Under the pieces are notes generated by a model. It was not told where the DNA came from, did not search any database, and saw only the letters and a list, made by a program, of their open reading frames with translations. Both the position numbers and the translations under genes were made by a program. A stretch of 42,156 nucleotides of DNA from a virus, in IMG/VR virus record IMGVR_UViG_3300047446_000281, positions 1 through 42,156 of that record; one strand, 5' to 3'. Positions 4,978-10,865 of the stretch are shown one piece after another; the first letter of the stretch is position 1, and every line of letters starts with the position of its first letter.

Positions 4978-5559
4978 TCAGGCTGAGAGCTGATCAGCGC
5001 GTTGGAGGCGCTCGCGAATCATGACGAACTCTTCGTCCAGCGAGCGCAGAAACTCATCAACTGTGCCGTCGTTGCGCAGGATCAGATCGTCCTGGCGAAC
5101 GGCTACACCGGCCTCGCTGATGTGTGGGGTCACCGCTTGCGCGTCGTTGCGGCCGATGTGGATGACTGTGCCGCCCCGGCGTCGAATTAGGTGCGCCTCG
5201 TTTTCGAAGCGCACGTCACTGACGACGAAACCGATTACAGCGCCCAGCGCCTTCGTCATGTAGTCGAGGTTTTGTTCGGCGAGCTTCACCCATACATCTG
5301 GGTGCACGGTGTCGCGCGCCCACTCAGTGCCCATCGACTGCATCAGTTGACGCGGCGAGCGGTCCAGCCAAGCCAGTGTTAGCTCCTTGCGTTCGCCTTC
5401 AAAGTCTGTTGGCTCGAGGTTGAAGATCGCCATCAGGCCATCACGAAGCGGATCGGCGAATGCGTAATGCTCCAGCAGGTAAGTGCCGACCAGGTGTTCG
5501 GCGGCGGTCGACTTGCCAGATCGGGCGCGTCCAGTGAGGCCAATCAGAATAGGCTTCAT
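4978..5559 (-). CDS. Deoxynucleoside monophosphate kinase-like P-loop protein
   Basis: A 193-residue protein with a clear Walker A loop at residues 10-17 (GRARSGKS) and the phage dNMP kinase features that follow: YAFADPLRDGL, RSPRQLMQSMGTEWAR with the substrate-site Gln/Met/Gly-Thr, and a later SDVRFENEAHLIRRRGG segment with VIHIGR. Such enzymes phosphorylate deoxynucleoside monophosphates and raise precursor supply during replication. It overlaps the upstream 66-residue gene by 4 bases (ATGA). It could also be annotated simply as an AAA/adenylate-kinase-like ATPase. Confidence 0.75.
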   Translation of the reverse strand: MKPILIGLTGRARSGKSTAAEHLVGTYLLEHYAFADPLRDGLMAIFNLEPTDFEGERKELTLAWLDRSPRQLMQSMGTEWARDTVHPDVWVKLAEQNLDYMTKALGAVIGFVVSDVRFENEAHLIRRRGGTVIHIGRNDAQAVTPHISEAGVAVRQDDLILRNDGTVDEFLRSLDEEFVMIRERLQRADQLSA

Positions 5560-7011: not shown

Positions 7012-7503
7012 ATGAATCGCAAAGGACAGTCGCCGGCCATTGCGCCGGTTCTTTCACTTCGCAAGGCAATCTATCGAGCGGCGCACGATTACCATGGCGG
7101 TGTTACCGCTCTGGCGCACGATATGGTGCTGGATTACGACAGTCTGCAGAAGAAGGTCAAGCACGACTTTGAGCAGCGATGGCTTGATCCTGATGAGTTG
7201 GAGGAGGTCATCCGCCTAACGGCACATCCCTTACTGTTGGACGCCTTGATGCGTCCTGCTGCCATGGTTTGGTATAAGCCTGAAGCCGCTGCCCCGACCA
7301 AGGAGGCTTTGCTGGCTGTTAGCAAGGTGCTGCACCAGACCGGGCAGTTTGTTTCCAGCATGCACGAAGGTGCGGCAGACAACCTCTGGGAGCGGCACGA
7401 AGTTGAATGCTTGGAGAAGCACGGCGCCGACGTGATCCGCGCGGTTCTGGGCATTATGGCTGGGGCCAGGGAAGCGATGGAGGCCCGCCAGAATGTCAGA
7501 TGA
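7012..7503 (+). CDS. Phage regulatory CII-family protein
   Basis: A 163-residue protein of the type annotated as 'phage regulatory CII family' in Pseudomonas prophages. The features are an N-terminal LRKAIYRAAHDYHGGVTALAHDM helix-turn-helix-like segment, then the DPDELEEVIRLTAHPLLLDAL signature and a helical C-terminal half. Its position after cro and before the replication genes fits a lysis/lysogeny or replication regulator. The family link is to P2/186-type CII rather than to lambda CII by sequence. It overlaps the following zinc-finger gene by 11 bases. Confidence 0.65.
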   Translation: MNRKGQSPAIAPVLSLRKAIYRAAHDYHGGVTALAHDMVLDYDSLQKKVKHDFEQRWLDPDELEEVIRLTAHPLLLDALMRPAAMVWYKPEAAAPTKEALLAVSKVLHQTGQFVSSMHEGAADNLWERHEVECLEKHGADVIRAVLGIMAGAREAMEARQNVR

Positions 7504-7696
7504 TATCGATATTGCCAACGATGCGGCCGAGCACTTCCGACAGTTTGCTTTGGCACGCCGCCCACGCCCGACATGCTCCGTCAGCGCGCAAATCTGTGAG
7601 GATTGCGACGAGCCTATCCCGTTACTTCATCAGCAGACGATTCAGGGTTGTGCTACCTGCGTCAGTTGCCAGGGGTTGCGGGAGCGGCGGCGATGA
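7493..7696 (+). CDS. TraR/DksA-type C4 zinc-finger protein
   Basis: A 67-residue protein with the TraR/DksA zinc finger: CEDC near residue 36 and CVSC near residue 57, with the conserved I-P between them and a basic GLRERRR tail. Phage TraR-like proteins bind the secondary channel of RNA polymerase in place of DksA and shift promoter choice. It overlaps the CII-family gene upstream by 11 bases and the primase start downstream (ATGA), so the three are translationally coupled. Confidence 0.8.
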   Translation: MSDDIDIANDAAEHFRQFALARRPRPTCSVSAQICEDCDEPIPLLHQQTIQGCATCVSCQGLRERRR

Positions 7697-8730
7697 GTGA
7701 CGACAAGATCCCGCTGCGACTATCCGATCTGCCTCACCTACTTCAATACATTTCCCCCGAATCACGTGAAACGTGGGTCGAAGTTGGTATGGGGTTGAAG
7801 GCAGAGTTCGGCCAAGAAGGCTACGGCCCCTGGAATATCTGGAGCCAAAGCAGCAAGGCTTATGATGGCAAGGCGGCGTTGTCGGTGTGGAAGTCATTCA
7901 AAAAGGCCGGTACCGGCATGGGTACTGTAATCAAGCAGGCGCTGGACGCTGGTTGGCGGCCCGAAAAAACCGAAATGACCGCCGAGGAAAAGAAGCGGTT
8001 TGCTGCGGAGTCGGAGCTGCGGCGCAAGCAGCGCCAGGCCGAGGTCGAGGCTGATGAGGCGCTACTCAACGAGATGCGCGCCTTGGTCGCCGAGAGCTGC
8101 CAACGTATCTGGAATGAGCATTGCCAGCCGGCCGGGAAGAGTGCCTACCTTGACCGAAAACATGTCGATGCCTTTGGCATTGGCTTTTTTAACACGACGG
8201 TAGTTTTGTCCATCGATGACCATAACAAGCGCTGCCAGGTTTGGTCCGGCAGTAGCGCAATGCAGTTCTTCAACAATCTGCCCAAGCTGCGACCTCCTTC
8301 ACTGAGCTTTTTGATGTTCAAGCCTGGCAGCATCGCCATTCCGCTCCGCGATGCATCTGGAAAACTTTGGAGCTTGCAGGCCATAAACGGGCAGGGCACC
8401 AAACTCTTTCCGAAGTATGGCCGGAAGTCCGGATGCTTCCATGTGCTTGGCCCTGTAGATGATCCCCTGGATATTGCCGTTGCTGAGGGCTATGCGACCG
8501 CCGCAAGCGTGCATATGGCCTTGGGTTGGCCAGTAGCGATGGCAGTTGATTCGGGCAATTTGCCGGCGATCACGCGCGCTTTGCGTCGGCAGTACCCCGA
8601 CGTTCGATTGTTGGTCGCCGGTGATGATGATCCCGACACCAAAGGTAACCCAGGCCGAACTAAGGCAATTCAGGCCGCTCTTGCAGCCGGTGGGTTCTCA
8701 GTCTTTCCGAGTTCCGTGGAGCAGGCATAA
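7693..8730 (+). CDS. Phage primase with PriCT-2 and Toprim domains
   Basis: A 345-residue replication protein. The N-terminal 90 residues (YISPESRETWVEVGMGLKAEF, then YDGKAALSVWKSFKK) fit PriCT-2. The C-terminal part is a Toprim domain with the conserved Glu in VAEGYATA and the Asp cluster in LLVAGDDDPDTKG. It should make primers at the phage origin together with the helicase encoded next. The ATG at 7693 overlaps the zinc-finger stop (ATGA). The CHC2-type zinc-binding domain seen in larger primases is absent. Confidence 0.82.
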   Translation: MSDDKIPLRLSDLPHLLQYISPESRETWVEVGMGLKAEFGQEGYGPWNIWSQSSKAYDGKAALSVWKSFKKAGTGMGTVIKQALDAGWRPEKTEMTAEEKKRFAAESELRRKQRQAEVEADEALLNEMRALVAESCQRIWNEHCQPAGKSAYLDRKHVDAFGIGFFNTTVVLSIDDHNKRCQVWSGSSAMQFFNNLPKLRPPSLSFLMFKPGSIAIPLRDASGKLWSLQAINGQGTKLFPKYGRKSGCFHVLGPVDDPLDIAVAEGYATAASVHMALGWPVAMAVDSGNLPAITRALRRQYPDVRLLVAGDDDPDTKGNPGRTKAIQAALAAGGFSVFPSSVEQA

Positions 8731-10224
8731 ATGGCAATTGATTGGAATGACCTGCATTGCAAGTCCGGTTTGAATGTGGTGCGCGAGCAGCTGTTGAGTT
8801 CAATGGTTCCGGTGGCACCTGGTCCAGCGTTTGATGATGTAGATGATCTCATCGACGGTTCGGTTGATCTTCTTCCCCGCGCCCCTTCTTCTGAGTGCGA
8901 AGTGCCAGAAAGTGAATCGCTCGCTCACACACTCGGGGGAGGAGGGGGATTTCGCATCAGTGAGCAGGAGCTGCTTAAAGATTTTGTGGTGATTTACGGG
9001 TTGGACGTTGCATGGGATTGCGCGCGCGCGCGAATGGTCAAGCTGTCGGCAGTGCGCGAGGCTGTTGGCCGAACGCGTTACAAGTGGTGGCAGGAGAGCG
9101 AACACCGCCGCATGGCGCAGGACGTTGTTTTTGACCCGATCAAACGCTGCAGCCCGTTGATGCTCAATTTATTTGATGGGTTTCATGCGGAGCAGGACGA
9201 GCGTGGTGCGGCGGGATGTTTGCGCATTCGCAAACACCTGGGCCTGCTGTGCAACGATCGGGAGGATGAGTATCTGTTTCTGCTGAAGTGGATCGCCTAT
9301 CCATTGCAGAATCCTGGCGCGAAAATGGCCACTGCCGTTGTGATGTTCGGTGCTGAGGGGCCGGGTAAGAGCCTGTTGTGGGAGCAAGTCGTGCGCCGTA
9401 TTTATGGTGACTATGGCACAACCATCGGCCAGGCGCAGTTGGAGAGCCAGTTCACCGGATGGCAGAGCCGCAAGCTCTTCGCCTTGGCGGAAGAGGTGGT
9501 GAGCCGTGAAGAAATGCGCCACTACAAGGGTGTGCTGAAGCACTTAGTGACCGGAGAGACACTGCAAATCAACGAAAAGAACATGCCAGTGCGCGAGGAG
9601 CGCAATCACCTAAACTTTGTTTTCCTGTCGAACTCGACGGTGCCACTGGCACTGGATGATGGCGATCGGCGCTACTTGGTGCTTTACGTCGATCGCGTTC
9701 CACCGGCTGAGTACTTCTCGCAGCTGGTCGAGGAAATCAATGGCGGTGGTATCGAAGCGTTCTATCACTACCTCATGAACCTGGATCTTAAAGGATTTGG
9801 GCCTCATACGAAGCCACCTCTGAACGAAGAAAAGCAGGGTTTAATAGATGGCAGCCTTCCGGCGCCCAGGTATTTTGTGCGGCGGTGGCTTGCTGGAGAA
9901 ACAGAATTTCCTGTTACAGGAGCCGTGACTCAAGACGATCTATGGCGAGCGTTCTGTAAGTGGTGTGAAGGTGCGAACGAGTTTAAACGACGACAACGTG
10001 ACTTTACCCAGGAGGCTGTGCGGGATCTGAAGCAAGCTCGGCCAGATATTCGATACCCAACGCAGAGTGACGATTTCAAGACCACGCGGGTGTACGCCAC
10101 TCCGGCGTTCATGGCGAAGAAGCAGGCACTCGGGCGAGACTGGGCAAGCAAGGCGGGGCTGGAGTGTCGTAAGTTTGCTACCGCGTTCGACAGGCGTTCG
10201 TTGCCGATGCCGGGTGACTTTTGA
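8731..10224 (+). CDS. Phage replicative helicase/primase, DUF5906 type
   Basis: A 497-residue SF3-like ATPase. The Walker A loop is GAEGPGKS at residues 207-214. A Walker B-like LFALAEEVV follows at about 250-258, and a sensor-like NFVFLSNS at about 294-301. The C-terminal 150 residues hold a winged-helix-type region (VTQDDLWRAFCKWCEG) as in P4/D5-type helicases. It starts immediately after the primase stop (TAAATG), so the pair forms a replication module. The CCGACA repeat array follows directly after its stop codon and is a likely place for it, or a partner, to act. Confidence 0.82.
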   Translation: MAIDWNDLHCKSGLNVVREQLLSSMVPVAPGPAFDDVDDLIDGSVDLLPRAPSSECEVPESESLAHTLGGGGGFRISEQELLKDFVVIYGLDVAWDCARARMVKLSAVREAVGRTRYKWWQESEHRRMAQDVVFDPIKRCSPLMLNLFDGFHAEQDERGAAGCLRIRKHLGLLCNDREDEYLFLLKWIAYPLQNPGAKMATAVVMFGAEGPGKSLLWEQVVRRIYGDYGTTIGQAQLESQFTGWQSRKLFALAEEVVSREEMRHYKGVLKHLVTGETLQINEKNMPVREERNHLNFVFLSNSTVPLALDDGDRRYLVLYVDRVPPAEYFSQLVEEINGGGIEAFYHYLMNLDLKGFGPHTKPPLNEEKQGLIDGSLPAPRYFVRRWLAGETEFPVTGAVTQDDLWRAFCKWCEGANEFKRRQRDFTQEAVRDLKQARPDIRYPTQSDDFKTTRVYATPAFMAKKQALGRDWASKAGLECRKFATAFDRRSLPMPGDF

Positions 10225-10452
10225 TTCCGACAATCCGACACCATTCCGACAACACGGAAGCATTGCTTTTGACCAATAAACGCGGGGTTTCCGACATTCC
10301 GACACATTTTTAATGATTTCTCATGTGCGCGTATACACAGGCGAGAATTACTATAAATACCTGTCGGATTGTCGGATTTTATACTTAACCATCTGTTTTT
10401 GTTGATTAAAAGTGTTCCGACAGGATTCCGACAACGAGCCGACAAACCGACA
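10224..10452 (+). repeat. Array of eleven CCGACA motifs, candidate origin or regulator site
   Basis: The gap after the helicase gene holds nine direct copies of (A/T)TCCGACA or CCGACA at 10224-10232, 10233-10240, 10243-10251, 10288-10296, 10296-10304, 10414-10422, 10425-10433, 10438-10444 and 10446-10452. Two inverted copies lie at 10362-10369 and 10370-10377. Between them are AT-rich stretches (10305-10360 and 10376-10413). Repeats flanking AT-rich DNA next to helicase and primase genes look like iterons of a replication origin. Binding sites for a transcription regulator are the alternative. Spacing is irregular and there are no unique spacers, so it is not CRISPR. Confidence 0.65.
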
Positions 10453-10472: not shown

Positions 10473-10865
10473 ATGGCAGTTTATAAACTTGAAAAGGACG
10501 AGTTGGTTCTCGTGGCTGAAACATTGGAAAGCATGCTCAGCCCGGTGCTGGCTGAATGGGAGGACTGGGATCACCTCATGCACGCCTTGGGCTTCACGCT
10601 GTACGACGAGGTTAATGGGGCATACAAGTTTTTCCGTCGTAGTGAATCGAGTTTGGAATCGCCCACCGCTGATCTGCCTGGTGTGGCGTATATGTTCGAC
10701 GTGAATATCGATGAATCGAACATTGACTACATCTTGTTGAGCAACCGGTTGCCTGAATACCTGACTGTCTTAAAATTGCTTGAGCCTCTGGTCAATCGCG
10801 CAGCGGCGGTCGAGGGACAGCTCGAAAAAGACCTGCGTAAAGAATTCATGACGTCATTGCGGTAA
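10473..10865 (+). CDS. Unknown phage protein
   Basis: A 130-residue acidic protein, not recognised. It starts MAVYKLEKDELVLVA after a good ribosome-binding site (AGGAAGG, 8 bases before the ATG) and has alternating hydrophobic and acidic residues that suggest an alpha/beta fold, with a helical C terminus (VNRAAAVEGQLEKDLRKEF). It is the first gene after the CCGACA array, so it may be controlled by whatever binds there. Confidence 0.6.
   Translation: MAVYKLEKDELVLVAETLESMLSPVLAEWEDWDHLMHALGFTLYDEVNGAYKFFRRSESSLESPTADLPGVAYMFDVNIDESNIDYILLSNRLPEYLTVLKLLEPLVNRAAAVEGQLEKDLRKEFMTSLR

Follow-up and report, generated by a model that had tools for sequence, protein, structure and literature searches.

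The window, which is the whole 42,156-nucleotide stretch analysed here (IMG/VR record IMGVR_UViG_3300047446_000281), is the record of a temperate tailed phage with genes for an integrase, an S24 repressor, a CII-like regulator, a terminase, a portal protein, a tail sheath and a tape measure protein. A primase gene is followed by a helicase gene of the DUF5906 family, and an array of short repeats lies directly 3' of the latter (Table 1). The primase stop codon directly abuts the helicase ATG (8725-8733); the two are likewise separate, abutting genes in L008, L038 and the Halomonas-type loci (related loci are numbered with the prefix L), and they form one open frame of 840-890 amino acids in equally close relatives (L009-L016). 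In profile searches the helicase matched the C-terminal region of the NrS-1 primase (6k9c/6k9e, 6e-32), and Foldseek likewise gave NrS-1 as the best match, followed by D5/E5 and SaPI5 primase-helicases; a plasmid search yielded remote relatives only. The early region also holds a deoxynucleoside monophosphate kinase gene (4978-5559, minus strand), and at the right end, far from the replication genes, the product of 36273-38321 matches phage DNA polymerase family PHROG 1268 and is followed on the opposite strand by an HNH endonuclease family protein.

Table 1. Features of the primase-helicase region and the iteron array in the window
Feature	Coordinates	Strand	Remarks
Primase partner, PriCT-2 plus Toprim	7603..8730	+	Separate gene in the window, fused to the helicase in most relatives
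SF3/D5-type replicative helicase, PF19263 DUF5906, NrS-1-polymerase-like, proposed initiator	8731..10224	+	Pfam E 2e-18; PHROG DNA primase families
Helicase C-terminal domain, residues 372-497, predicted winged helix, proposed iteron-binding domain	9844..10221	+	AlphaFold2 mean pLDDT 90.5
Iteron group I	10225..10251	+	Three direct CCGACA copies, steps 8 and 11 bp
Iteron group II	10289..10304	+	Two direct copies, step 8 bp
Alternating purine-pyrimidine tract CATGTGCGCGTATACACA, 18 nt, Z-DNA-prone	10322..10339	.	Between groups II and III
AT-rich stretch, candidate first unwinding site	10345..10359	.	Beside group III
Iteron group III	10362..10377	-	Two inverted copies, step 8 bp
Second AT-rich spacer	10378..10414	.	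Between groups III and IV
Iteron group IV	10415..10452	+	Four direct copies, steps 11, 11 and 8 bp

Multiple short iterons directly 3' of a helicase gene, as in origins of the P4/SaPI type, are present in the window. The array comprises 11 exact copies of CCGACA within 10227-10452, nine on the plus strand (starting at 10227, 10235, 10246, 10291, 10299, 10417, 10428, 10439 and 10447) and two on the minus strand (10362 and 10370), which bears out the count of eleven copies in 229 bases, nine direct and two inverted, made in the initial annotation. The three groups described there are in fact four (three, two, two inverted and four copies), with steps of 8 and 11 bp within groups. The array starts 2 nt past the helicase stop codon (TGA, 10222-10224) and ends a few nucleotides 5' of the ribosome-binding site of the next gene (ATG at 10473); it had been taken for the only gap in the replication region, but 7504-7602 is also open between called reading frames of the early region. 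It holds 11 of the 46 CCGACA copies of the window in 0.5% of the window's length, and the maximum per 229 bp in 300 windows simulated with a first-order Markov model was 4. When no word was presupposed, the best 8-mer in the 310 bases 3' of the helicase stop codon again occurred 11 times, as against at most five times in 40 dinucleotide shuffles. There is no second CCGACA cluster in the window, and its GC skew does not switch at the array. Single-stranded DNA of the array folded no better than shuffled sequences (z -0.8), and a hairpin function was dropped on that ground.

Relatives of the helicase were gathered from IMG/VR, GTDB genomes and a phage collection, with 80 of 487 confirmed DUF5906 relatives kept in one scan, and about 100 related loci were found to carry an array of the same plan directly 3' of a DUF5906 helicase gene, among them Pseudomonas, Halomonas, Massilia, Stenotrophomonas, Moraxella and metagenomic phages. 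Behind helicases 75-87% identical to that of the window, the CCGACA array follows the stop codon in an almost unchanged register; at about 53% identity (Halomonas phage H4907 and its relatives) CAGACA and CCGACA are mixed and the register is unchanged; and in farther relatives (Massilia, P. aeruginosa, P. stutzeri, Stenotrophomonas S1 and Moraxella phages) the array occupies the same place with another word. Six loci fetched after this rule was formed (L139-L141, L143-L145) all have the array, with new words such as GTTCCAG and GTTCCGGG. The suggestion that the same array might recur downstream of related DUF5906 genes thus holds for every close relative, and for distant ones once a change of word is allowed for, and this conservation supports the proposal of the initial annotation that the repeats may be iterons of the phage origin. 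No array was seen 3' of the helicase gene in remote relatives (Vibrio J2, Rhizobium and Brevundimonas phages) or within 300 nt 3' of the gene in the distant relatives L054-L056. A pattern of three spaced CCGACA iterons occurred in 8 of 2.9 million viral contigs, all 8 of them already known as helicase carriers; a scan with a Massilia-type word gave five contigs. Each of the related records searched had its paired sites at a single spot. When the phage collection was searched for DNA directly similar to the array, there was no match, as expected if the word turns over.

These comparisons also bear on whether the array is an operator or antitermination site for the following genes, the alternative that had been offered alongside the origin. 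It does end just 5' of the ribosome-binding site of 10473-10865, and the consensus matches in it or close by include one resembling a promoter and three resembling terminators. However, the genes that follow the array in the different loci come from many unrelated groups while the array stays, the promoter-like count is at the level of chance (1 versus 0.5 expected), single-strand folding is no better than in shuffled sequence, and a two-sided 230-bp plan around a fixed centre is unlike an operator. We therefore regard such a control function as highly improbable.

The repeated word differs among the loci, from CCGACA and CAGACA near the window to TGTTGAGGGT, TGTGAANGGT, TGGGAACAGT and GTTCCAG at farther loci. 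Aligned by orientation and phase, the words make up one family, roughly T-N-N-N-R-A-N-R-G-T, in which the window word takes the form TTCCGACAG and the other members are TTCAGACAG, TGTTGAGGGT, TGTGAANGGT, TGTGATGGGT, TGTTGGCGGT, TGGGAACAGT and TGTGTTGGGT. Core positions carry about 1.0-1.5 bits of information within a locus versus about 0.2-0.9 bits when loci are pooled, which indicates that the copies in one phage change in concert.

The layout of the sites is more constant than their sequence. The usual plan has outer groups and inner groups, the inner steps being 8-10 bp and the inner right group inverted; in most lineages, including the window, group IV is oriented as groups I and II and group III alone is inverted. 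Six sites lie left of the centre in 56 of 106 loci and six lie right of it in 53, with a mode of 12 for the total, although relatives are not independent and motif calling adds or loses some sites. Six per side is the mode, not a rule: the window has 3+2|2+4, i.e. five and six, and lacks the fourth group I site that stands at about +29 to +33 from the stop codon in relatives (present in L014 and L016), and the L030 and L033 lineages look like 5|5 or 5|4. The same half-sum is reached in different ways, as 4+2|2+4 in L014, L016 and L019, as 4+2|3+3 in L073 and L075, and as 3+3|3+3 in L034 and the Massilia group. In L143 and L145, three sites 11 bp apart and three 9 bp apart on the left face three inverted sites 9 bp apart and then three inverted sites 11 bp apart on the right, and L141 differs from these two loci by one base in two steps. 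A half-sum that stays near six while the layout varies is what one hexamer per half would produce. In Massilia-type loci (L093, L027), the outer left iterons, two of them inverted, lie at about -13 to +20 relative to the helicase stop codon and overlap it, so that the end of the coding sequence and the putative origin share bases.

Between the two halves lies a conserved centre. An alternating purine-pyrimidine sequence is the classical Z-DNA-forming pattern, and in the 60 nt that follow group II the longest such run has a median length of 18 nt over 100 loci, reaching at least 12 nt in 90% and at least 16 nt in 65% of them. The corresponding values are 0.84% and 0.05% in background 60-nt windows of the same loci (n=12,316), and 8.8% and 1.8% in dinucleotide shuffles of the same stretches. 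The 90 tracts comprise 74 distinct sequences, mostly non-palindromic and with about half of their steps CG or GC, which suggests that the alternation is kept and not the sequence; Moraxella phages are without a GC-rich alternating tract. Towards group III, the mean AT content climbs from 0.41 to 0.74 (97 loci), and an AT-rich segment between iteron groups, as expected of a P4/SaPI-type helicase origin, is therefore found here as well. In L139-L145 and L034, a second alternating tract (e.g. CTCGCGCGCGTATACA) stands beside the inverted group, and the centre looks symmetric, with a tract, an AT-rich stretch and a tract.

Which protein reads the word was approached through the helicase itself. AlphaFold2 confidently predicts its C-terminal 126 residues to form a winged helix that carries a long terminal helix, and the protein would combine an SF3/D5 core with a C-terminal winged-helix domain, as in the self-loading helicases of P4/SaPI-type origins. 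Pox_D5 (PF03288) is matched by the C-terminus in 31 of 49 relatives (best 1e-5) and not by that of the window's own helicase; Foldseek against the PDB gave weak matches, mostly to winged-helix DNA binders (RFX, ORC1/Cdc6 and RTP), and a sequence-profile search found no solved structure for the domain. In Mantel tests over 96 loci, word distance correlated with winged-helix distance at 0.73 and with SF3-core distance at 0.55, and the partial correlations were 0.58 for the winged helix when controlled for the core and 0.10 for the converse. Forty-eight disjoint nearest pairs gave 0.58 for the winged helix and 0.07 for the core, but in a control on disjoint pairs the core block 220-320 equalled the winged helix (0.55-0.59). 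Within one clade, columns outside the winged helix correlated with the word too, and the top-scoring windows were confined to the helicase half, with the primase half contributing none. In the Massilia group, SGEPMYTSMT changes together with TGTGAA, SGESKYTSLT with TGTTGA, and YISQT with TGTGAT or TGTTAT, which offers a specific lead. At the residue level, covariation thus lacks specificity for the winged helix, which linked inheritance of helicase and array would lead one to expect. Overall, the pattern fits the helicase as the reader of the word, but since the array is linked to the helicase end it is no proof of the domain.

The same data leave some room for an origin at which the iterons are read by the CII-like regulator (7012-7503), an HTH protein or the primase, the helicase being merely recruited. 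Further DNA-binding proteins are encoded nearby, and covariation does not single out the winged helix; against this, the place of the array directly behind the helicase stop codon is constant, the best within-clade windows avoid the primase half, and related helicases bind their own downstream repeats by the C-terminal domain (PMC7581432). We consider another reader improbable.

Taken together, the region is best read from its sequence as an iteron origin of the P4/SaPI type with one helicase hexamer probably loaded per side. We consider it highly likely that 10225-10452 is the replication origin of this phage, at which the helicase would bind the iterons through its winged helix, one hexamer on each side, and melt the centre. 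This reading draws on the near base-level retention of the array 3' of close helicases, on its presence at about 100 loci and at the six loci added later, on the three-iteron pattern that finds helicase-bearing contigs alone and the paired sites at one spot, and on per-side counts that peak at six despite differing group layouts. It is further consistent with a word distance that tracks winged-helix distance better than SF3-core distance, with the lack of conservation of the next gene, with the type 1 repeats of P4, which lie in crr directly 3' of alpha, and with the reported binding of SaPI Rep and Cch2 to repeats downstream of their own genes (PMC7581432). From the P4 and SaPI parallels together with the winged-helix prediction, we infer a model whereby, after induction, the SF3/D5-type helicase encoded just upstream would bind the iterons through its C-terminal winged helix, and the sites left and right of the centre would each gather one hexamer, on six and six sites in the commonest plan and on five and six in the window copy. 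The two hexamers would then melt the central AT-rich stretch, with the alternating tract possibly aiding melting by taking up negative supercoiling; they would encircle single strands, the adjacent primase would lay primers, and polymerase would extend the forks, probably both ways.

A search of literature available without subscription found no published description of the array. What appears to be new is that a near-constant six-plus-six plan persists while the word turns over, and that the alternating tract is conserved. It is conceivable, though we would not favour it, that these loci represent a previously undescribed origin design, in which twelve iterons in two sixes would place a pair of hexamers on either side of a Z-DNA-forming, supercoil-sensitive tract, and in which winged helix and word would change together to yield a natural catalogue of replicon specificity. 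The assignment would locate the replication origin in temperate phages and prophages that carry DUF5906 helicases, a large group that has received little study. With one fixed plan and many words, the loci offer a natural series from which to learn how helicases of this kind select their origin, and close helicase pairs (SF3 core 80-90% identical) that have different words could reveal the residues that choose the sequence. In addition, the six-plus-six count suggests how two hexamers may be placed, and with a tract conserved in pattern rather than in sequence it becomes directly testable whether left-handed DNA, or DNA that absorbs supercoils, has a role in opening the origin.

Among the closest known systems, phage P4 has a similar arrangement of repeats. 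The type 1 origin repeats annotated in P4 read GGTGAACA on the strand of alpha; those in crr, immediately 3' of the gene for the alpha primase-helicase, are spaced 9 bp apart, and as in the window the short repeats of P4 ori and crr, 9-11 bp apart, are both direct and inverted. The P4 repeat fits the word family, with the Massilia-type word TGTGAANGGT coming close to it and the window's own word differing. The alignment of P4 alpha with the window helicase spans the SF3 core and extends into the beginning of the C-terminal domain, although this is a remote relation (hhalign probability 72%, 19% identity). The crr and ori repeats of P4 (L137, 4291-4590 and 9310-9413) were inspected: five type 1 repeats are annotated in each 120-bp crr repeat, where an apparent further near-copy, CCTTCACC, would bring the number to six per unit, and six are annotated in ori. 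Neither crr nor ori has a long alternating purine-pyrimidine tract (7 nt), and the two P4 sites lie far apart, whereas the window and related records show one cluster. That ori and crr share repeats, and that crr is the one 3' of alpha, would suit an array serving as an accessory replication site with initiation elsewhere; with no second word cluster in the window and no second paired-site spot in the related records searched, we think this unlikely and retain the array as the probable origin itself.

Iteron plasmid origins of the RepA/RepE type similarly combine iterons with an AT-rich unwinding element; their iterons are typically 17-22 bp and are bound by Rep proteins that are not helicases. 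For the helicase, the closest solved relative is the DUF5906 helicase region of the NrS-1 phage polymerase. The SaPI5 primase-helicase structures are also among its Foldseek matches, with a marginal sequence match to 7pds (E 0.25). SaPI and SCCmec elements have hosts different from that of the window, and Cch2 has three repeats only. The origins that SaPI Rep helicases recognize lie directly 3' of the helicase genes; recognition resides in the C-terminal domain, and two hexamers seem to be involved. For Cch2, the C-terminal domain on its own is enough to bind the repeats downstream of the gene (PMC7581432). SaPI Rep-ori and SCCmec Cch2 thus share with the window an origin of short iterons directly 3' of the gene for a self-loading helicase, and the C-terminal DNA-binding domain and the two hexamers suggested there (PMC7581432) have a predicted counterpart in the window.
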